A DNA stretch of 46,745 nucleotides from an uncultured Caulobacterales bacterium (GTDB taxonomy: Bacteria; Pseudomonadota; Alphaproteobacteria; Caulobacterales; Maricaulaceae): assembly GCA_938040095.1 (NCBI GenBank), contig CALHXF010000032.1, forward strand, positions 1-46,745, read 5' to 3'. The translations under genes were made by a program, and so were the position numbers. Positions 11,978 through 42,369 of the stretch are shown piece after piece (positions within the stretch are counted from its first letter, which is position 1; each line of letters starts with the position of its first letter). Under the pieces are notes generated by a model. That model ran no database searches and was not told the DNA's origin. It saw only the letters and a list, made by a program, of their open reading frames with translations.

Positions 11978-13402
11978 ATGGCCGAAATTATTGAAGAGCA
12001 AAACACGGTGAATACTCGCTTTATTTTGCTGATTACGATTGTCGCAACATTGGGCGGCTTCTTGTTTGGCTTTGACTCCGCCGTTGTCAACGGAACTGTT
12101 GATGGACTTCAACAAGCGTTTAACTCTGATAGTGTCGGGACGGGCTTCTCTGTTTCTTCCATGCTTCTCGGTTCAGCTTTTGGCGCGTTCTTTGCCGGTT
12201 GGCTAGCTGATACATTTGGACGTCGCAAGATGCTAATGGTCGCGGCTGTGTTATTCATTATTTCGGCTTGGGGTTCGGGCATTGCTGGATCGCCTGGAGC
12301 TTTCATCTTTTATCGTATCATTGGCGGTCTCGCAGTTGGCGCGGCGTCCGTTATGGCTCCAGCCTATATTTCAGAGATTGCGCCAGCGGAAACACGCGGG
12401 CGCCTGACGTCGATCCAACAAGTTGCGATTGTTGTTGGGTTAACACTCGCTTTCATCTCAAATTATTTTCTCGCTAAATTTGCTGGCGGTTCGACCGCAG
12501 AATTTTGGGGCGGATTTCAGACATGGCGCTGGATGTTCTGGATGGAATTGATTCCAGCCTTTTTGTTCTTGGGTCTGTTGTTTTTCATCCCGAAATCACC
12601 GCGCTTCTCAATGCTTAAGGATGATGAAGTCGATGCGAAAGCAACATTGCTGAAGTTGTTCGGTGATCCAAAAGCCTCTCGTAAGGTTCAGGAAATCAAG
12701 GACTCACTTCAAAACGACCACAAACCTACCCTTGGGGATGTAATGTCCAAAGATGGCGATAAGAGCTTTCTTTTTCGCGGGATCGTTTGGGTCGGTATCG
12801 GCTTGGCGATGTTCCAGCAACTCGTCGGTATTAACGTGGTATTCTATTACGGTGCTGTGCTCTGGCAGGCCGTTGGCTTTACGGAAAGCGATGCGTTGCT
12901 GATTAATGTGATGTCTGGCGTTTTGTCCATTGCTGCTGTTATGGTGACTTTGATGACGATCGATCGCATTGGACGTAAGCCTTTCTTGGTTTGGGGTTCT
13001 GTCGGAATGGCCATTTCTTTGGTCCTTGTGGCTTTTGCTTTCTCACAAGGTACACTCAACGCAGAAGGTACTTTGCAGCTCCCAGGTAAAATGGGCTTAG
13101 TCGCCTTGATCGCCGCAAACGCTTACGTTGTTTGTTTCAACATGAGTTGGGGTCCTGTGATGTGGGTTATGTTGGGCGAAATGTTCCCGAACCAAATTCG
13201 CGGTTCAGGCTTGGCTATCGCAGGTCTTGCGCAATGGTTTACCAACTTCGCGATTACATTGACCTTCCCAATCTTCTTGGCAGGCATTGGCCTTGCAGCC
13301 GCCTATAGCATTTATGCTGCATTTGCACTGATCTCAGTCTTCTTCGTGCTTTGGTTCGTGAAGGAAACGAAGGGCAAAGAGCTTGAGGATATGACAGGTT
13401 AA
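11978..13402 (+). CDS. MFS sugar porter (sugar:H+ symporter family)
   Basis: This 474-residue protein has about 12 predicted membrane helices and the sugar-porter signatures GFLFGFDSAVVNGTVDGL (helix 1), ADTFGRRKM after helix 2, RIIGGLAVGAASVMAPAYISEIAP (helix 4), PKSPRF near helix 6, FYYGAVLW in helix 7 and RIGRKPFLVWG in the second half. It belongs to the XylE/GalP-type branch that brings monosaccharides across the inner membrane with protons. Context (xylA/xylB on one side, Entner-Doudoroff genes on the other) suggests xylose and/or glucose, which sequence alone cannot decide. It follows lacI by 74 bp with an operator in between. Confidence 0.93.
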   Translation: MAEIIEEQNTVNTRFILLITIVATLGGFLFGFDSAVVNGTVDGLQQAFNSDSVGTGFSVSSMLLGSAFGAFFAGWLADTFGRRKMLMVAAVLFIISAWGSGIAGSPGAFIFYRIIGGLAVGAASVMAPAYISEIAPAETRGRLTSIQQVAIVVGLTLAFISNYFLAKFAGGSTAEFWGGFQTWRWMFWMELIPAFLFLGLLFFIPKSPRFSMLKDDEVDAKATLLKLFGDPKASRKVQEIKDSLQNDHKPTLGDVMSKDGDKSFLFRGIVWVGIGLAMFQQLVGINVVFYYGAVLWQAVGFTESDALLINVMSGVLSIAAVMVTLMTIDRIGRKPFLVWGSVGMAISLVLVAFAFSQGTLNAEGTLQLPGKMGLVALIAANAYVVCFNMSWGPVMWVMLGEMFPNQIRGSGLAIAGLAQWFTNFAITLTFPIFLAGIGLAAAYSIYAAFALISVFFVLWFVKETKGKELEDMTG

Positions 13403-13940
13403 GCCTGAACTTATTCACCACTGGAAAATTGGTTAGCCCTAATTGGGCTGACCATTCTGGACATCGTTTTGTTTAAAGGTGTGTCGGAATGTGAGACGGG
13501 TTTTCTTTGATTTTTTTGAGCTTCTCAAGTTTCTCAAAATTGGGCTAGTCGACTACGAATTTTAATACTAAAGAGGCCATATGGTAACTATAGCTAAACA
13601 GCTTTTTTTGGCGTTCGTTTTGCTTCTTTTGGTCCTCCTCGGGCTTTAAGCGCTTTACAGAACTGCATTTATTCGACGCGATTTTTCACGTCGATTTGAT
13701 CTATAGTGCGTTTTTTTTATTTGAATTTTGTGTTTTCGGTCTCCCTTTAGGTCAAAGAGCACTTGAAATGCACCGAGTTCCATCGCGTTGCTTCATTTTG
13801 CGCGGTTCACAACGAATGTAATTTGAAAGTGTTCGCTGGGCTTCCTTAGTCCACAGCTTTTGAAACTGCTTTCATCACAAGTTATTCGATCTGCCATGAT
13901 AATGGCTTCGAGCCATTTTTGTAAATTCAAGGGATATACC
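13403..13940. other. 538-bp intergenic region between the sugar porter and the second GH3 gene
   Basis: This is the longest non-coding stretch of the window apart from the pseudogene. It holds a 9-bp hairpin GGTTAGCCC/GGGCTGACC at 13431-13453 that has no T-run after it (one G-T pair), a 22-codon hydrophobic small ORF at 13581-13649, an 8-bp palindrome AAGCGCTT at 13648-13655 and a T8 tract at about 13711-13718. The right-hand 200 bases show nothing further I can support. The ORF-track start at 13860 for the GH3 gene is an upstream in-frame extension. Confidence 0.5.
13581..13649 (+). CDS. Small hydrophobic ORF, 22 aa (putative membrane peptide)
   Basis: This ORF is too short for the track. 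ATG at 13581 is preceded by AAGAGG (13571-13576), a good Shine-Dalgarno at 4-bp spacing. It encodes MVTIAKQLF followed by a run of Leu, Val, Phe and Ala ending LLGL, then TAA. One lysine and one glutamine near the N-terminus precede about 15 consecutive apolar residues, the pattern of a single-helix membrane micropeptide. Alternatively it is a leader peptide for the GH3 gene that starts 291 bp downstream. The ribosome site and clean hydrophobic composition argue against chance, but there is no family evidence. Function unknown. Confidence 0.45.
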   Translation: MVTIAKQLFLAFVLLLLVLLGL

Positions 13941-16496
13941 ATGATACGGACTCTCGCTCTAAAATCTGTTTCAATACTCGCGGTCACGGCCTTGCTGGGT
14001 GCCTGCTCAAATTCATCTGACCAGCCTGACGCTAAAACGCAAAACAAAGAAGTTCGAGCGCCAGGCACTGTTGATCCCTCGATTTGGCCAAAATTGGAAA
14101 GCCCTGTTGGTTTGGATGCAGCTATGGAATCTCGCATCACCAATATTATGGCGCAGATGACATTGGCCCAAAAAGTCGGACAGATTATCCAGGCTGACAT
14201 TGGGTCGATTACACCAGAAGATTTGAAAACTTATCCATTGGGCTCCATTTTGAATGGCGGTAATTCAGCCCCAAATGGTGATAATCGTTCTCCTGCATCT
14301 GCATGGGTTAAGCTTGCAGACGAATTCTATGAGGCTTCGAAAGAGGCATATGGCGATGATCTATTTATTCCGATGATTTGGGGTACGGATGCGGTTCATG
14401 GACATAACAATGTTCCTGGAGCGACAGTATTTCCCCATAATATTGGCCTCGGGGCGACCCGTAATCCAGCTCTTCTGGGGAAAATCGGGGCCGTCACCGC
14501 TCAAGAAATCCGAGTGGGCGCGCAGGAATGGACCTTTGCTCCAACCCTCGCTGTTGTTCGAGATGATCGTTGGGGGCGGACATATGAAGGCTATTCTGAA
14601 AACCCAGAAGTAACGGCCTCATACGCGGGCGAACTTATCCGTGGTATTCAAGGCGACGTTGGTTCGAGTGATTGGCTGACTGGCGATCATGTCATTGCGA
14701 CAGCTAAACACTTCTTGGCCGATGGTGGTACCAACCAAGGGCGGGATCAGGGCGACTCAATTGAAACAGAGTTAGAAATTCGTGATATTCACGGGGCGGG
14801 TTATCCGCCAGCGCTAGAAGCTGGCGTGCAATCTGTGATGGCGAGCTTTTCGTCTTGGCAGGGTAAAAAACTCACAGGCCACAAAGGCTTGTTGACTGAT
14901 GTGCTCAAAGGTCAAATGGGATTTGACGGCTTTATCGTCGGTGACTGGAATGCGCACGGTCAGCTTGACAGTTGTACCAATACAGATTGCCCTGAAGCCC
15001 TTCATGCTGGTCTTGATATGTTCATGGCTCCCGATAGTTGGAGAGGGCTTTTTGATACGACGCTGCAACAGGCTGAAGGCGGCGAAATCGATCTTGAACG
15101 TTTAGATGACGCCGTGCGACGTATCCTTCGCGTTAAATTGCGGGCAGGTTTATTCGAAGCAGGCAAACCCTCTACACGTGGCGTCGCAGGTCAGTATGAA
15201 TTACTCCAAGATCCCGCTTCTAAAGCCGTTGCACGTCAAGCCGTACGCGAATCCTTGGTGCTTCTGAAGAATGACGGTGTTCTTCCGCTCTCTAACGATG
15301 CAACTATTCTCGTTGCGGGTGATGGCGTCGACAATATTGGCAAACAATCTGGCGGTTGGACTCTATCTTGGCAGGGGACAGGGAATGAAAATAGTGACTT
15401 CCCCGGTGGCTCATCTTTTTTAGATGGTATTGAACGTCATCTCTCCAACGGTTCAGGTAAAGTTATTCAGGCAGATGCGACCGGAAGCTACACCGGCAAT
15501 CCTACGGTTGCTGTCGTTGTCTTTGGCGAAGACCCTTATGCTGAGTTTAAAGGTGATCGGGATACGCTTGCCTATAAGCCAGGTAATGACAGTGATCTCG
15601 ATCTGCTGAAGAAATTCCAGGCCGACGGCATTCCGACTGTGGCCGTATTCCTTTCTGGGCGTCCAATGTGGATTAACCGCGAATTAAACGCATCTAACGC
15701 ATTTGTTGCGGCTTGGTTACCCGGCTCCGAAGGCGGCTACGCGATGGACGTTCTTTTCGGTCAAACTGATGCGAGTGCGCCTGTCGATTTCAAAGGGACT
15801 TTGTCTTACTCTTGGCCGCGCACGGCTATTCAGACACCGCTGAACTATGATGACGAAAAATATGATCCGCTTTTCGCTTATGGTTATGGCTTGTCTTATG
15901 CGAATTCAAAACCCGTTGATCAGCTTCCTGAAGATGCGGGTATTGAATTATCTCAGAAGAATGAAAGCAATTTCTTTAAAGCGGGTAAGGCCGTTTTTCC
16001 TTGGGAAATGATAATTGGTGATGCTTCGGGCAAGACGACAGTCAAAACCTCGAAGGCGGATAGTCCTGGTGGTAATGTTAAGATTATTTCTGCTGATGAC
16101 GGTGTTCAGGAAAATATCCGAACTCTTGAGTTTACAGGCCCGGGACGATTTGAAATTCGAGGTACACCGATTGACCTTCGCCGTCAAAATACGGGCGATA
16201 TGGCTGTGTATCTACGTGTCCGACCGGAAGTTGCAGACGAAAGTAAAGCTGTTCGCCTAGGAGTAGATTGTGGTGGGACAACTTGCGATGTCGACAACAA
16301 ACTTTCAGATATATTGCAAAATACTAAGGTTGGAGAGTGGGCTGAAGTCTCAGTCAAGCTCTCCTGCATGGGCGATGCCTCCGCAATGGAATATGTCCGC
16401 GCACCTATTGTGATTGAGACGGACGGACCTGCGAAATTTAGTATTTCAGATGTCCGCTTGGTGGCAAATGAAGGCCAAGCGGTCTGTTTGGACTAA
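13941..16496 (+). CDS. Glycoside hydrolase family 3 lipoprotein, ExoP-like exo-beta-glucosidase
   Basis: The start is taken at ATG 13941 (851 aa), which has AAGGGA at 6-bp spacing and opens a lipoprotein signal with lipobox LLGAC (Cys22); the ORF-track start at 13860 adds 27 unlikely residues. The GH3 barrel contains IWGTDAVHGHNN, the Lys-His pair in ATAKHFLADGG (256-257) and the probable nucleophile Asp335 in FIVGDWNAHG. The second GH3 domain follows (VRESLVLLKNDGVLPL). The last 200 or so residues form an extra beta-rich domain, as in ExoP-type exo-1,3/1,4-beta-glucosidases. The enzyme should release glucose from beta-glucans outside the cytoplasm. It is flanked by the sugar porter and a LacI gene and followed by a clear terminator. 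Confidence 0.92.
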   Translation: MIRTLALKSVSILAVTALLGACSNSSDQPDAKTQNKEVRAPGTVDPSIWPKLESPVGLDAAMESRITNIMAQMTLAQKVGQIIQADIGSITPEDLKTYPLGSILNGGNSAPNGDNRSPASAWVKLADEFYEASKEAYGDDLFIPMIWGTDAVHGHNNVPGATVFPHNIGLGATRNPALLGKIGAVTAQEIRVGAQEWTFAPTLAVVRDDRWGRTYEGYSENPEVTASYAGELIRGIQGDVGSSDWLTGDHVIATAKHFLADGGTNQGRDQGDSIETELEIRDIHGAGYPPALEAGVQSVMASFSSWQGKKLTGHKGLLTDVLKGQMGFDGFIVGDWNAHGQLDSCTNTDCPEALHAGLDMFMAPDSWRGLFDTTLQQAEGGEIDLERLDDAVRRILRVKLRAGLFEAGKPSTRGVAGQYELLQDPASKAVARQAVRESLVLLKNDGVLPLSNDATILVAGDGVDNIGKQSGGWTLSWQGTGNENSDFPGGSSFLDGIERHLSNGSGKVIQADATGSYTGNPTVAVVVFGEDPYAEFKGDRDTLAYKPGNDSDLDLLKKFQADGIPTVAVFLSGRPMWINRELNASNAFVAAWLPGSEGGYAMDVLFGQTDASAPVDFKGTLSYSWPRTAIQTPLNYDDEKYDPLFAYGYGLSYANSKPVDQLPEDAGIELSQKNESNFFKAGKAVFPWEMIIGDASGKTTVKTSKADSPGGNVKIISADDGVQENIRTLEFTGPGRFEIRGTPIDLRRQNTGDMAVYLRVRPEVADESKAVRLGVDCGGTTCDVDNKLSDILQNTKVGEWAEVSVKLSCMGDASAMEYVRAPIVIETDGPAKFSISDVRLVANEGQAVCLD

Positions 16497-16722: not shown

Positions 16723-17751
16723 ATGAAAGCTACAATTACCGATGTCGCCAAAAAAGCTGGCGTCTCGATGAAAACGGTATCCCGGGTTTTGAATAATGAA
16801 CCCAATGTCGCGGACAAGACGCGTGCTCGCGTAAAAGCGATTGCGGCGGAACTCAGATACTCTCCAAATCTTGCTGCTCGTGGATTGGCGACATCAAAGT
16901 CCTATTTAATCGCACTGATTTACGATAATCCATCAATTAACTACATCTCGCATATTCAACGTGGGGCCATCGATGCGTGTCGAGAGGCGGGGTATCACCT
17001 TGTCGTCGAGCCGTTATATTTGGAGAAAGCTAAGTCGAGAGATGAAAAAGCGGACGCCATGCGTTCGGTTCTCGAAAGATTGCCTGTCGACGGCGTTATT
17101 TTAACGCCGCCGCTTTGCGATAGTGAAGGAATTCTTCAAACCCTCGCTGAACTTCGCATTGATTGCGTTCGGGTCGCGCCCGCCAATCGAGGCCAGCAGC
17201 CATTTGTAGGTATGGATGACGATACGGCAGCCTATCAAATGACCCAGTATTTATTGGGGCAGGGTCATCAACGAATTGGGTTTATAAAAGGTCATATTGG
17301 TCACGCTGCGACAGATATGCGTTTTGACGGATACTGTCGTGCGATTGAAAGCGTTGGTCTGAATCTGACACCAGAGCTTGTCGTGAATGGTGACTTTTCT
17401 TTCGAGTCTGGAGCCGAGCAGGCAAAAATACTTCTGAATCTTCCCGTTGAAAAGCGCCCTACGGCGATATTCGCGTCTAATGACGACATGGCTGCGGCCG
17501 TGATTTCGGTGGCTTCTCAAATGGGTTTGGCTGTTCCAGCAGATCTGTCTGTTTGTGGCTTTGATGATACGCCTCTGGCGCGCATTTTGTCGCCTGCTTT
17601 GACGACAGTGAGGCAACCGATTTATAAAATGGGGTATAACGCGGCTCAGCAATTGATCATGCCAGCGGGAAGTAAGGCGGAAATAGGTCAAATTCTCGAT
17701 TTTGAGATTAAGTTGCGAGATTCAGTTGCCCTTTTAAAAAAGAACATGTGA
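16723..17751 (+). CDS. LacI-family transcriptional regulator (second copy)
   Basis: This 342-residue repressor has the N-terminal HTH TDVAKKAGVSMKTVSRVLN and the hinge LAARGLATSK. The sugar-binding domain carries PTAIFASNDDMAAAVI and VCGFDDTPLARILSPALTTVRQP, the last being typical of the dimerising C-terminal lobe. A GGGGAG Shine-Dalgarno is 10 bp before ATG 16723. Its recognition helix (SMKTVSRV) differs from that of the first LacI (SFKTVSRV) at one position, so the two could bind overlapping site sets. It precedes the zwf operon; an operator lies 42 bp after its stop. Probable role: control of glucose/Entner-Doudoroff genes or the neighbouring GH3. Effector unknown. Confidence 0.9.
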   Translation: MKATITDVAKKAGVSMKTVSRVLNNEPNVADKTRARVKAIAAELRYSPNLAARGLATSKSYLIALIYDNPSINYISHIQRGAIDACREAGYHLVVEPLYLEKAKSRDEKADAMRSVLERLPVDGVILTPPLCDSEGILQTLAELRIDCVRVAPANRGQQPFVGMDDDTAAYQMTQYLLGQGHQRIGFIKGHIGHAATDMRFDGYCRAIESVGLNLTPELVVNGDFSFESGAEQAKILLNLPVEKRPTAIFASNDDMAAAVISVASQMGLAVPADLSVCGFDDTPLARILSPALTTVRQPIYKMGYNAAQQLIMPAGSKAEIGQILDFEIKLRDSVALLKKNM

Positions 17752-17792
17752 CTTGAAATGCTCTCTATTGAATAAATATAGGGCGAATGAAT

Positions 17793-17821
17793 TTGACAGC
17801 GCTGTCACTATTGGACATATT
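17793..17821 (+). promoter_or_regulatory. Predicted sigma-70-type promoter of the zwf operon
   Basis: TTGACA (17793-17798) and CATATT (17816-17821) are separated by 17 bp. A second possible pair, TTGGAC (17811-17816) and TACATT (17834-17839), also has 17-bp spacing. The first is preferred because its -35 lies in the operator. The zwf ATG is about 55 bp downstream, preceded by GAGG. Confidence 0.5.
17794..17807. promoter_or_regulatory. LacI-type operator (site 3) upstream of zwf
   Basis: TGACAGCGCTGTCA is a perfect 14-bp palindrome with a central CG. It matches sites 1 and 2 in all ten arm bases and the CG. It overlaps the -35 hexamer of a credible zwf promoter, so bound repressor would block RNA polymerase. 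Confidence 0.8.
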
Positions 17822-17882
17822 TGAGCGTGAAGGTACATTCGTGCTCACGCATTTAGACTATTATTGTCTGTATTGAGGTAAC

Positions 17883-19430
17883 ATGGTTGACGATCACACA
17901 ACAACATCAGCGCATACAACTGATGAAACGGATGCCACAAAGGGGGGGGGAGCAGTTGAAGCAGGCTCTGTTTTTGTTCCTGTTGAACCTTTTGAAATCG
18001 TAGTTTTCGGTGGAACCGGCGACCTTGCAAGGCGTAAGCTTATTCCGTCACTCTATCACCGATTTTGTGATGGCCAAATTCCAAAAGAATCCCGCATCAT
18101 AGGTGCATCACGTTCGTCCTTAAGCCGGGATGAGTATCTCAAACTTATCAGAAAATCATATCTTGAATTTGTTGGTAAAAAAGGTTTCTCCGAAACGAAA
18201 TGGCAGAGCTTTTGTGAGATCATCGACTATGCGGTTGTTGATGTCACGAAAGATAGTGACTGGGGCGGTTTAGGTGAAAAACTTGACGCATCTGAGTCGC
18301 TTATACGTGTCTTCTATTTGGCAATGCCTCCTGCTCTGTTTTCAGACATTTGCAACGGATTGAAAAAAGCTGGACTCGCGCACAAGGAAAGTCGCGTCGT
18401 TTTAGAGAAGCCGTTAGGTCGTGATTTTAAATCTGCCGACGCTATCAATGAAGCTGTTGGACAGGTTTTTTCAGAAAAACGAATTTACCGAATTGATCAT
18501 TTTCTAGGCAAAGAAACTGTACAAAACTTACTTGTCCTGAGGTTTGGCAATGTCTTGCTTGAGCCGCTTTGGAATCGAGATTCCATTGAGCATATTGAAA
18601 TTACCGTTGCCGAAGATATCGGCGCAGGTGGACGTGGCGCCTATTATGACAAATCTGGCGCGTTACGGGATATGGTGCAAAACCATCTCCTGCAGTTGCT
18701 TTGCCTCACCATGATGGAGCCTCCTGGATCGACGGACGCTGATGATTTACGGCTTGAGAAAATTAAAGTTCTTAGAGCGTTAGCCCCCATTGACGCTTCC
18801 AACGTGAAGCAGAAAACTGTTCGCGGCCAATATGTCAAAGGTAAAGTTGATGGCGTGGCTGTGCCAGATTATTTGACGGATGTTGACGTCGAAGAAAGTG
18901 TGGCTGAAACATATATCGCGATTAATGCAGAGGTGAATAATTGGCGTTGGGCTGGCGTTCCAATCTATATCAGAACAGGCAAGCGAATGCAGGCAAGACG
19001 ATCTGAGATTGTCGTTCAATTTAAACCTGTTCCGCATTCTGTGTTTGGGCCCGGAATTAAAGTAAATCCCAATAAGCTTGTCATCCGCTTGCAGCCAGAT
19101 GAAGCTGTAAACCTTTGGATGGAAATTAAAGAACCAGGTGCCGGTGGCCTCAGGTTGAAAACCTTACCTCTGAATCTGTCCTATGCCGATAATTTCACCG
19201 TGCGCTATCCTGATGCTTATGAACGGCTGCTCATGGATGTTGTGCGGGGTCGCCTTTCGCTCTTTATGCGTCGCGATGAAGTTGAAGCTGCATGGCGTTG
19301 GTGTGACGGCATTTTGGAGGCTTGGGATGAGGTCGATCAGAGCGTGGCTTACTATCCTGCGGGTTCGGACGGTCCAGAAGAAGCCAAACGCATGCTTGCC
19401 AGACAAGATGATGTTTGGTCCGAAAGTTGA
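17883..19430 (+). CDS. zwf: Glucose-6-phosphate 1-dehydrogenase Zwf
   Basis: Zwf oxidises glucose 6-phosphate to 6-phosphogluconolactone, reducing NADP+ (or NAD+), and is the entry to the Entner-Doudoroff and oxidative pentose pathways. The Rossmann motif FGGTGDLARRKLIPSLY (about 41-57) and the catalytic RIDHFLGKETVQN (about 201-213) are clear. At 515 aa it is about 25-30 residues longer than usual. The extra is a low-complexity N-terminus (MVDDHTTTSAHTTDETDATKGGG) containing a G9 tract. No alternative ATG lies between this extension and the conserved domain, and GAGG precedes ATG 17883, so the extension seems real. It is the first gene of zwf-pgl-edd-glk-SMP30. Its stop overlaps the pgl ATG. 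Confidence 0.96.
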   Translation: MVDDHTTTSAHTTDETDATKGGGAVEAGSVFVPVEPFEIVVFGGTGDLARRKLIPSLYHRFCDGQIPKESRIIGASRSSLSRDEYLKLIRKSYLEFVGKKGFSETKWQSFCEIIDYAVVDVTKDSDWGGLGEKLDASESLIRVFYLAMPPALFSDICNGLKKAGLAHKESRVVLEKPLGRDFKSADAINEAVGQVFSEKRIYRIDHFLGKETVQNLLVLRFGNVLLEPLWNRDSIEHIEITVAEDIGAGGRGAYYDKSGALRDMVQNHLLQLLCLTMMEPPGSTDADDLRLEKIKVLRALAPIDASNVKQKTVRGQYVKGKVDGVAVPDYLTDVDVEESVAETYIAINAEVNNWRWAGVPIYIRTGKRMQARRSEIVVQFKPVPHSVFGPGIKVNPNKLVIRLQPDEAVNLWMEIKEPGAGGLRLKTLPLNLSYADNFTVRYPDAYERLLMDVVRGRLSLFMRRDEVEAAWRWCDGILEAWDEVDQSVAYYPAGSDGPEEAKRMLARQDDVWSES

Positions 19431-20140
19431 TGCAAACACGTCAGATTATATCAGATCAAGGTGACGCTATTGTTGACGCGTCCAATGCTATCGCAGGTGT
19501 TTTGAGGCAAGCCTTGGAAACCCGTGGATGCGCGAGTTTGATGGTAAGTGGGGGGAGTTCGCCCAAGCCTGTTTATAACTTACTCTCAAAGGCTGATTTG
19601 GACTGGTCCAAAATAACAGTAAGTTTGGTTGATGAGCGTTGGGTGGACCCAGGGCAGGCGGGATCAAACGAGGATTTTATCCGCGAAAACCTCATCCAAA
19701 ATAAAGCTAAAAGCGCATCTTTCTTTGGCTTGAAAACGCCTCATTCGACGGTCGCTGATGGACTGAACGACGCAGAAGCACGGTTTGAGAACATAAAAAA
19801 GCCATTTGATGTGTGTGTGATGGGAATGGGCGGGGATGGACATACGGCGTCTTGGTTCCCAAATTCAGGTGGTCTTGAATCAGCGCTGTCTTTGAAGAAT
19901 GAAAATGTTCTGTGTGAAATTGATGCGGCAGGTTGCCCCGTGGCGGGTGAGCATACGACACGTATTTCCCTGACTTTGAAAGCCGTTCTTGATGCACATG
20001 CCATCATTTTATTTATTCCAAGCGCAGAAAAACGCGCTGTATTTGATGCGGCTTCTGAACAATACGTTAATGATGCGCCTGTGAAAGCTCTGCTACAAGC
20101 TGGTGCGAAACTTCATGTCTTTACGAGTCCCACAACATGA
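19430..20140 (+). CDS. pgl: 6-phosphogluconolactonase Pgl
   Basis: Pgl hydrolyses 6-phosphogluconolactone to 6-phosphogluconate. The 236-residue protein (NagB/DevB type) shows LMVSGGSSPKPVYNLL near residue 33, the SLVDERWV motif with its SNEDFIRENL continuation, and MGMGGDGHTASWFP (about 121-134). The track begins at a TTG at 19415, but the ATG at 19430 overlapping the zwf stop as TGATG fits family length better and implies coupling. Its 3' end overlaps edd by 4 bp. Confidence 0.95.
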   Translation: MQTRQIISDQGDAIVDASNAIAGVLRQALETRGCASLMVSGGSSPKPVYNLLSKADLDWSKITVSLVDERWVDPGQAGSNEDFIRENLIQNKAKSASFFGLKTPHSTVADGLNDAEARFENIKKPFDVCVMGMGGDGHTASWFPNSGGLESALSLKNENVLCEIDAAGCPVAGEHTTRISLTLKAVLDAHAIILFIPSAEKRAVFDAASEQYVNDAPVKALLQAGAKLHVFTSPTT

Positions 20141-21987
20141 CCCACCCTATCATTAAAGACATAACCGCTCGTATTACGGAACGCTCCAAAACAAGTCGCG
20201 CTGGATATTTGGCGGCATGCGAAATGCAGATGCGGGAAGGGCCTCGCAGGAGACGGCTTTCCGAAGGAAATGTTGCTCATGCGTCTGCAGGCTGCGCTGT
20301 ACTAGAAAAAACGGAATTACTTGGGGCTAAATGGGCAAATATCGGCATCGTAACGGCTTATAATGATATGTTGTCTGCGCATGCTCCATTTGAAAAATTC
20401 CCAGAATTGATCAGACATGCGGCGCGTCGTAATGGCGCTACGGCGCAAGTTGCTGGCGGCGTTCCTGCGATGTGTGATGGGGTGACTCAGGGCCGCGATG
20501 GCATGGAACTCTCGCTTTTTTCTCGCGATAATATTGCGCAGGGTGCCGCGATTGCGTTGTCTCATGATATGTTTGATGCGGCAATTCACTTGGGCGTCTG
20601 CGATAAAATCGTACCAGGCCTCATGATTGCAGCATTACGATTTGGGTGGATACCTCAGATTTTCGCGCCAGCAGGTCCGATGCCATCGGGCATTCCTAAT
20701 CCTGAAAAAGCGCGAGTGCGGCAGGCGTTTGCAGCAGGAGAGGCAACACGTGCGGAACTTCTTGCTGTTGAAGCCGCGAGTTACCACGCCCCAGGAACCT
20801 GCACGTTTTATGGGACAGCCAATACAAATCAAATGCTCATGGAAGTCATGGGGATGCAATTACCGGGCTCTAGTTTTGTGCATCCAAACACACCTCTGCG
20901 CGATGCCTTAACGGCCCAAGCTGTTCGTCGTGCGACACAAATCACGAATATGGCTAAGGGTAAAGATGCCGCCTTCACACCTACTTGTAAGGTGATCTCG
21001 GAGAAAAGCATTGTGAATGGTATCGTTGGCTTGATGGCAACCGGGGGGTCGACTAATCTGACGATCCATATGGCAGCCATCGCACGTTCAGCAGGGATAC
21101 TTATCAATTGGGATGACTATGCTGCGATCAGTGCGGCTGTGCCATTGATCTGCAAAATATACCCAAATGGTATTATGGACGTAAATCACTTCCATGCGGC
21201 AGGCGGTATGGCTTACTTGATAGGTGAGCTCCTGAGTGAAGGCTTATTGCAAGGGGATGTTACAACGGTGGCTGGCGGAAATGGGTTGCATGCCTATAAG
21301 CAAGAGCCTGTCAAAAATATGCATCTTGAGGCAGACAGTGTAATCTGGAGAGATGGCCCAACGAAAAGCCTTGATCCTGAAATACTCACTACTGTTAAAG
21401 CGCCCGTTCGCGATGATGGCGGCCTTGCCGTGATGACGGGAAACCTCGGTCGCGCTGTCATGAAAATTTCAGCGGTCCAGCCTGAAAATTGGTTTGTGGA
21501 AGCGCCTGCTATTGTCATTGATGATCAGAATGAATTGATCACGATGCATAAAGCCGGTGAATTGGAACGAGATTTTGTTGTTGTTTTGCGGTTTCAAGGT
21601 CCTCGGGCAAATGGGATGCCGGAACTTCATAAATTGACTCCGATTTTAGGTCTCCAACAGGACAAAGGTTATCGCGTTGCGATGGTAACGGATGGCCGAA
21701 TGTCAGGGGCGTCGGGCAAAGTGCCTGCCGCTATCCACCTCCATCCAGAGGCCCTCATGGGCGGTCCGATTGCACGTGTTCAAACCGGAGATCTTATCCG
21801 TTTGGATCCTGCTAATAATACAGTTGAGGTCGTCGGGCAGGACATATCTGAACGTGAGGCCGCAAACCAACCTCCACAGCCTCAGCTGGCCGCCTTAGGT
21901 ATGAATATGTTTGCAGCACAACGTGCTAATGCGAGCGATGCGGAAAGTGGAGCGTCTACATTGGGTGATATGCCGTGGTTCACTTGA
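20137..21987 (+). CDS. edd: Phosphogluconate dehydratase Edd
   Basis: Edd dehydrates 6-phosphogluconate to 2-keto-3-deoxy-6-phosphogluconate, the defining step of the Entner-Doudoroff pathway, using a [4Fe-4S] cluster. The 616-residue protein belongs to the IlvD/Edd family. Edd-type stretches are [23 protein letters not shown] (about 108-130), [23 protein letters not shown] with cluster cysteines, [14 protein letters not shown], and [18 protein letters not shown] near the C-terminus. These distinguish it from dihydroxy-acid dehydratase. The aldolase Eda is not encoded here. It overlaps pgl upstream by 4 bp and glk downstream by one base. Confidence 0.96.
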
Positions 21988-22982
21988 TGGAAATGCCAAC
22001 TTCACAATCTGTTGATATGTCCGAAGAGTTGACCTTGGTCGGGGACGTCGGAGGTACGAATTGTCGTTTGGCATTGGCCCAACGTACTGCGTCAGGAAAC
22101 ATCGAGTTGCATCATTCCGAGCGTTATGCCGTCGCTGAATATGCGCATTTCAATGACGTTGTTGCGAGTTACTTGGAAAAATACGGTATACGGGCCCAAC
22201 GTGGCGCCTTTGCTTTTGCAGGTCCGAAATTTGATGACGAAATTCGGATGACAAATGTTAACTGGATCGTGTCTGAAGAGGAATTACGGCGGACATTTGC
22301 CTTAGAAACGGCTGTCGTCCTGAACGATTTTGTCGCTATGGCGAATGGAGCGACTGTTATCCCCGATGACGGTTTCGAGGTGTTGATACCAGGCAAGGTG
22401 AATTATAATAAGCCTGTTGCGGTTTTAGGTCCTGGAACGGGAATGGGCTTATCTTGCATTTTACCTGGCCGTCCCTTGCGCATTATTCCGACCGAGGGCG
22501 GTCATACAGCCTTTGCTCCAGGTAATGAATTAGAACGAGATGTGCTGGGATATTGGTCCAAGCGCCTGCCATTCGTATCTGCCGAGGCATTGATATCTGG
22601 GCCGGGGCTCGTGCGATTGCATACCGCCATTTGTGCAATTATGGATGCACCATCAAATGATTTGACGGCACCTGAAATCGTCTCTGCTGCGGAGTTGGAC
22701 AGTTCTTCAACCGCCCGAGTTACGGTTACACATTTTTGCTCAATGTTGGGTGGGTTCGCGGGCAACGCAGCCGTGACTCAAGGTGCATCTGGTGGCGTTG
22801 TTATTGGGGGAGGGGTCTCTCGCCATATCGCGCCCTTCATTGCTCAGTCAGATTTTATAGAACGTTTCAAAAACCGTGGCCCAGGAAGCTGGTATGTCAA
22901 AGACATACCCGTGCGACTGATCCGCGCCGACTTTGTGCCATTATATGGTGCAGCTGCTATGGTTCTCGATGCTCCACATTAA
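21987..22982 (+). CDS. glk: Glucokinase Glk
   Basis: Glk phosphorylates glucose with ATP, supplying Zwf. The 331-residue protein is of the bacterial Glk family rather than ROK: LVGDVGGTNCRLAL forms the ATP-binding loop, LNDFVAMANG holds the conserved catalytic Asp region, GPGTGMGLSCIL and IPTEGGHTAFAP follow, and GGVVIGGGVSRHIAPF is near the end. The track start at 21975 lies inside edd. ATG 21987 forms TGATG with the edd stop and is preferred, although [14 protein letters not shown] leaves a further possible start about ten codons on. A glucokinase fits import of free glucose by an MFS porter rather than a PTS. Confidence 0.95.
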   Translation: MEMPTSQSVDMSEELTLVGDVGGTNCRLALAQRTASGNIELHHSERYAVAEYAHFNDVVASYLEKYGIRAQRGAFAFAGPKFDDEIRMTNVNWIVSEEELRRTFALETAVVLNDFVAMANGATVIPDDGFEVLIPGKVNYNKPVAVLGPGTGMGLSCILPGRPLRIIPTEGGHTAFAPGNELERDVLGYWSKRLPFVSAEALISGPGLVRLHTAICAIMDAPSNDLTAPEIVSAAELDSSSTARVTVTHFCSMLGGFAGNAAVTQGASGGVVIGGGVSRHIAPFIAQSDFIERFKNRGPGSWYVKDIPVRLIRADFVPLYGAAAMVLDAPH

Positions 22983-41755: not shown

Positions 41756-41786
41756 GTGAATTGGTTTCGGGCGTTGTTAATTTCGA

Positions 41787-42369
41787 TCACTGAATTCTAA
41801 CACGAACCAAAACCTCGCCTGTTGAATTTTGGGCGAGACTGGCGCTTGTTAGGCTGACCGTACAGTTCCCGCCCATGCAGCTCGTATTCGGTGTTGGGTT
41901 GGATAGGCTGCCGCCTGTGAAGCCTGTTGTCGACGCGGACAGGAAAGTGAGTTTATCTGGCAGAACATCTGAAATGGCAATATCGTCTGCAGGCGAGAAA
42001 ACATCACATATTTCTAAGACTCAATCGCCCTGCGCGGCTTGGCCGTTAAAAGTAGAGAGACGGTTGTTTGGGCGTACTGTATTTTCGAACGACGGCGCGA
42101 CGGCGCGACGGTGCCATCGGGTGTCGTGTGTGATCCTGTATTTACCAGATCGGCAGCGGCGCCGTCTAATATGGCATTATAATTATCAATAATGCCGTCG
42201 GCATTTGCATAGGAAGCGAGCAACTGAACAGTCGTGCCTGAGGGTTAAGTCAAACTCAACTATATATCACCTCTCCACGTATGATCAGCCTGAAAGCCAA
42301 GACCCTCATCAGTGATGATAAAGGCTTGCGTAACTTGGAAAGTGCGGACCAGCGGCACAGCGCAGTTTG
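41787..42369 (-). pseudogene. Degenerate paralogue of the adjacent P-domain/DUF11 protein
   Basis: Reading the minus strand immediately after the stop of the 42370 gene gives a P-domain remnant in the order CAVP...FIITDEGLGFQADHTWRGDI, with in-frame stops TAG (42260-42262) and TAA (42245-42247). It continues LLASYANADG...VNTGSHTTPDGTVAP. There a frame change falls at an 8-bp tandem duplication (42091-42106). With one copy removed, FENTVRPNNRL and FNGQAAQGD appear, followed by a TGA (42021-42023) where a Trp would be expected. Then VLEICDVFSPADDIAISDVLP fuses into a DUF11 C-terminus ending VLVRVRIQ and a stop at 41787. The aligned parts correspond to the intact protein's residues from about 55-170 and its last 60. 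No start or signal peptide remains, so it is not expected to be expressed. Confidence 0.8.
42091..42114. repeat. 8-bp tandem duplication (two exact, one near copy) in the pseudogene
   Basis: GACGGCGC occurs twice in tandem (42091-42098, 42099-42106), followed by the near copy GACGGTGC. Removing one copy restores the reading frame to the paralogue's P-domain. Confidence 0.8.

Follow-up and report, generated by a model that had tools for sequence, protein, structure and literature searches.

A free-standing gene for a probable single-span membrane micropeptide near sugar-catabolic genes in marine Caulobacterales

Among bacterial small membrane proteins, CydX, AcrZ and KdpF are very short, contain one transmembrane helix, tolerate sequence change and are often encoded near their partner; in CydX, no single residue is required for wild-type resistance to beta-mercaptoethanol (PMC6005532). 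The inner-membrane hydrophobic micropeptide YohP of E. coli, 27 aa in length, reduces both the potential and the fluidity of the membrane under starvation (PMC12719787). Short hydrophobic peptides with a basic residue are also found among type I toxins of the Ibs, TisB and TimP class, and one study describes Salmonella TimP, a small inner-membrane protein that is toxic and is repressed by a small RNA (PMC7667032). Operon leader peptides, encoded by short ORFs upstream of the operon, provide a further point of comparison. Genes this short escape standard annotation and homology searches. We describe here a micropeptide gene that resembles each of these systems in some respects and differs from each in others.

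The gene lies in a 46,745-nt contig of an uncultured Caulobacterales bacterium, the whole of which is referred to as the window. A 22-codon ATG frame at 13581-13649 on the forward strand encodes MVTIAKQLFLAFVLLLLVLLGL followed by a stop codon, as the original prediction described. It occupies a 538-nt gap (13403-13940) between an MFS sugar porter gene (11978-13402, +; Pfam Sugar_tr, E 4e-114) and the gene for a GH3 beta-glucosidase-like lipoprotein of the ExoP type (13941-16496, +; Pfam Glyco_hydro_3, Glyco_hydro_3_C and Exop_C). Beyond the GH3 gene, a lacI-family regulator gene and zwf, pgl, edd and glk form an Entner-Doudoroff cluster (16723-22982, +; Pfam LacI, G6PD, Glucosamine_iso, ILVD_EDD and Glucokinase). 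The gap is T-rich, with an AT skew down to -0.46. It had been called the longest in the window, which is probably incorrect: the 614 nt at 41756-42369 exceed it in length and, apart from junk-like mechanical ORFs, offer no convincing gene and neither a tRNA nor an Rfam match. At 13430-13454, just after the MFS gene, there is a very stable hairpin, GGTTAGCCC-TAATT-GGGCTGACC (fold of 13425-13475, -21.2 kcal/mol, z -5.5), and in another genome of the set (G010, L011 642-660) the gene for a different transporter, of the SSS type, is followed by a similar stretch, CCTGATTGGGCTGACC.

Stepwise profile searches combined with synteny yielded a family of 34 members of 21-26 aa, one per genome, in four genera of a single Caulobacterales family, the marine clade that includes Litorimonas, Algimonas, Hellea and their relatives. 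Several members were first recognised from their location, either upstream of lacI-zwf or following a transporter or SGNH gene, and then matched to the profile. The peptide is present in 16 of 18 genomes of the window's own genus, in all 10 of genus g9, in 6 of 10 of g7 and in 2 of 3 of g5; besides the 22-aa set, the window's genus has eight members of 23 aa. The cultivated Litorimonas cladophorae KCTC 23968 carries MVTIAKQLLLAFVLLLLALLGL. All members follow one plan, in which a K or R near the N-terminus (34/34) is followed by 14-15 uncharged, mostly hydrophobic residues, a Gly (penultimate in 32/34), one further residue and the stop. No member has a charged residue after residue 10, GRAVY values range from 1.6 to 2.6, and a small residue (A, S or T) usually precedes the Gly by four positions (by three, as A-x2-G, in the 22-mers).

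A strict motif scan in six frames of the fetched DNA, about 1.0 Mb in a total that counts overlapping loci more than once, returned family loci only. Scanning 84,980 species with a DNA pattern gave 20 loci, of which 12 fall in Litorimonas cladophorae, Algimonas, Hellea and Caulobacterales or Hyphomonadaceae MAGs, matching the genus searched; the other eight are scattered over unrelated phyla, and none of them passes the strict motif. Outside the four genera, the matches from a profile search of 398 genomes of the order were all either below threshold or located within longer ORFs, and a search of 385 genomes of the class produced no clear member and three weak matches, with the reservation that a 23-position profile may miss more diverged relatives. 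The best of the class-wide matches (L224, G489:C33:10203-10259; E 5.8e-4) lies inside a 91-aa frame from another alphaproteobacterial family. The micropeptide has no match in Pfam or in the plasmid search; NCBIfam gave only an irrelevant match (E 0.91), and the best PDB profile match, to the N-terminus of a fimbrial subunit (E 1.7), is not to a relative. The micropeptide represents a new family of a known kind, the bacterial small membrane proteins.

The case that the frame is translated is carried by how it has changed among close relatives. When the 18 genomes of the genus were searched at the DNA level, G002 (74%) and G010 (68%) gave a match at the corresponding place. A 22-aa frame of identical length is present in G002, G004, G010, G012, G013, G014 and G016, with 55-91% amino-acid identity, and the alignment that the original prediction had proposed finds the start, the frame and the hydrophobic codons all conserved. 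Compared with one another, the eight closest sequences differ at 36% of first, 2% of second and 54% of third codon positions, and over all within-group comparisons (1658 codon comparisons) the corresponding fractions are 0.41, 0.06 and 0.58. Estimates of dN among the eight are 0.07-0.33, far below dS, which in most cases is either close to 1 or saturated. Past the stop codon, the next 45 nt are at background level, with a mean identity of 0.27 in the same eight. Selection on a hydrophobic protein is the sole explanation that fits this substitution pattern and the unconserved flank. By this comparison, the 22-codon ORF is a genuine, previously unannotated micropeptide gene, and it is single copy, has a fixed plan and is maintained under protein-level selection in four genera.

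The commonest setting of the gene, seen in all four genera, is in or beside a sugar cluster, where about 25 of the 34 copies are found. The recurrent order is a transporter gene (MFS or SSS), an SGNH hydrolase gene, the micropeptide, GH3, lacI and zwf-pgl-edd-glk, with different genes missing in different genomes. In several genomes (G001, G003, G006, G015, G035, G040 and G051) the micropeptide lies outside this cluster. The next gene may be GH3, lacI, zwf, an SDR gene or a convergent eda, moxR or ABC transporter gene. It is convergent in eight genomes, among them G007, G052 and G054 with eda and G001, G003 and G015 with moxR. The remaining two, G006 (L093) and G051 (L206), belong to different genera and share the same convergent ABC transporter gene; this is the second neighbourhood that recurs. 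In two g7 genomes (L208 in G035 and L209 in G040) the micropeptide has moved off the sugar cluster to a place between ppx/gppA-like and SDR genes, and in two others, from two genera (L027 in G016 and L190 in G031), tryptophan-halogenase-like gene pairs lie directly beyond it, near GH3/lacI clusters. We also considered, and rejected, an obligatory partnership with the MFS or SSS transporter: the MFS gene persists in streamlined g7 genomes, and in G038 the SSS gene as well, with no detectable peptide, so both transporters can do without it. No particular downstream gene is fixed beside the micropeptide.

Signals flanking the gene suggest how it might be expressed. When 16 upstream regions of the window's genus are aligned ungapped on the ATG and numbered relative to its A, the columns kept are C-36 (13/16), T-35 (15/16), G-33 (14/16), T-12 (14/16) and A-11 (16/16), although conservation among related genomes may partly reflect ancestry. 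T-35, G-33, T-12 and A-11 occupy exactly the canonical -35 and -10 positions for a transcript whose first base is the A of the ATG. In the window they correspond to a putative -35 element, TAGTCG (13546-13551, +), and a putative -10 element, TAAAGA (13569-13574, +). The AAGAGG proposed as a ribosome site (13571-13576, +) is indeed present, with a 4-base gap to the ATG, but it is only weakly conserved as a Shine-Dalgarno sequence and may not act as one, as it overlaps the better-conserved -10-like element. The two genomes that lack T-12 (G007 and G017) instead have the longest Shine-Dalgarno matches, and the other genera mostly have purine-rich GAGG or GAGAG stretches upstream. Since the conserved columns sit at fixed -35 and -10 positions and leaderless mRNAs are common in Caulobacter crescentus, where 375 have been described (PMC4117421), a leaderless mRNA is plausible in the window's genus.

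On the downstream side, strong intrinsic terminators lie about 30 nt after the micropeptide stop in G001 and G003. In the window, a hairpin followed by eight T (13660-13718, +; fold -14.3 kcal/mol, z -2.5) could terminate the micropeptide transcript; a simple terminator scan did not report it. Together with the variation in the next gene, the terminators make it most likely that the micropeptide gene forms its own short transcription unit. The palindrome AAGCGCTT (13648-13655, +) overlaps the stop codon, as had been noted, and is probably incidental: the window contains one copy where 0.98 are expected by chance at its composition, and the homologues lack it. A LacI-type operator at this palindrome was rejected because it occurs in the chance number and is unconserved, and a riboswitch or other known RNA was rejected on the lack of an Rfam match.

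These observations bear directly on two explanations that would deny the peptide a function of its own as a protein. A chance hydrophobic ORF might be expected in such T-rich intergenic DNA, where T at codon position 2 gives hydrophobic residues, but the retention of start, stop, length and hydrophobic codons while third bases are saturated and the flanks show no conservation refutes this explanation, to which we assign a negligible probability. The original prediction had also raised the possibility of a leader peptide controlling the GH3 gene, and an upstream ORF acting on GH3 or lacI-zwf by attenuation or ribosome stalling would account for the position of the gene directly upstream of GH3 in the window and in G002, G004, G008 and G010, and directly upstream of lacI-zwf in five other genomes of the genus. 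Gene order and terminators are at odds with such control, however, as the convergent arrangements and the terminators of G001 and G003 illustrate, and the position directly upstream of GH3 is not conserved. The next start codon lies anywhere between about 80 and 500 nt away, apart from Leu there is no excess of codons for a regulated amino acid, and no conserved leader RNA linking the peptide to the next gene appears either as an Rfam match or as conservation after the stop. Unlike in operon leader peptides, moreover, selection here acts on the amino-acid sequence over its whole length. We therefore rejected control of a downstream gene by a leader peptide, which we regard as highly improbable.

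Two further explanations accept a membrane peptide and differ in what it would do. Type I toxin-antitoxin pairs show a sporadic, multicopy pattern. The size, hydrophobicity and single N-terminal Lys of the micropeptide resemble those of known toxins, and a membrane-depolarising peptide held off by an antisense RNA would have a precedent in Salmonella TimP (PMC7667032). The micropeptide, by contrast, is single copy, vertically inherited and recurrently syntenic, and it is present in nearly all species of two genera, a pattern that speaks against a toxin. The sequences give no sign of an antisense RNA: there is no Rfam match, and the region downstream, the expected site of an antisense promoter, contains no conserved block. 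A toxin seems unlikely. We attach a comparably low probability to a free membrane-modulating peptide that acts with no dedicated partner in the manner of YohP, to which the micropeptide is likened by description and not by homology. Such a peptide would fit the similar size and plan and a very tolerant sequence in which physical properties are conserved, but the conserved register of the Lys, the near-invariant penultimate Gly and the small residue four positions before it suggest specific packing. YohP is, in addition, tied to starvation (PMC12719787), whereas the neighbours here are sugar-catabolic and the Lys...Gly plan is conserved.

We favor a free-standing gene for a single-span inner-membrane micropeptide that would have its own promoter and work in trans, with a guessed role in sugar uptake, and we put the probability of this reading at about 0.7. 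The suggestion of a single-helix membrane micropeptide, already part of the original prediction, gains support from purifying selection on hydrophobicity across the 34-member family and from the N-terminal basic residue, the C-terminal Gly and the uncharged remainder of the chain. The peptide is predicted to contain one hydrophobic stretch long enough to span the membrane, with its charges at one end. In the window's genus, its own promoter would probably give rise to a leaderless mRNA of about 140 nt. By the positive-inside rule, the basic side of a membrane helix stays cytoplasmic, so the peptide would insert N-in, keeping its Lys side cytoplasmic and its short C-terminus on the outer side of the inner membrane. 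The small-residue face near the outer end ([A/S/T]-x3-G, or A-x2-G in the 22-mers) may then pack on a partner, either by docking in trans onto a larger membrane protein or by self-association. As to function, our guess is that the peptide adjusts sugar uptake or the energy state of the membrane during growth on glucose or beta-glucans, which appears the most likely role given its usual neighbours, namely the sugar transporter, SGNH, GH3, LacI and Entner-Doudoroff genes. In these features the micropeptide approaches CydX, AcrZ and KdpF, but it is shorter, is often in a transcription unit of its own and has no detectable sequence similarity in Pfam, NCBIfam or PDB.

A more specific proposal, which we consider doubtful, is that the peptide is a leaderless subunit of 21-26 aa that tunes sugar uptake or the Entner-Doudoroff pathway by docking on a transporter or respiratory protein. 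If this were true, it would rank with the shortest known examples of a dedicated regulatory subunit translated from a leaderless mRNA, would be specific to marine Caulobacterales, and it would be a subunit that evolves fast, with only the position of the charge, the hydrophobicity and the C-terminal Gly persisting between genera. Sequence evidence by itself supports the micropeptide in 34 genomes, and the family makes a clean test set for the minimum of sequence that a conserved membrane protein requires. It also marks an unrecognised component near the central sugar catabolism of algae-associated bacteria.
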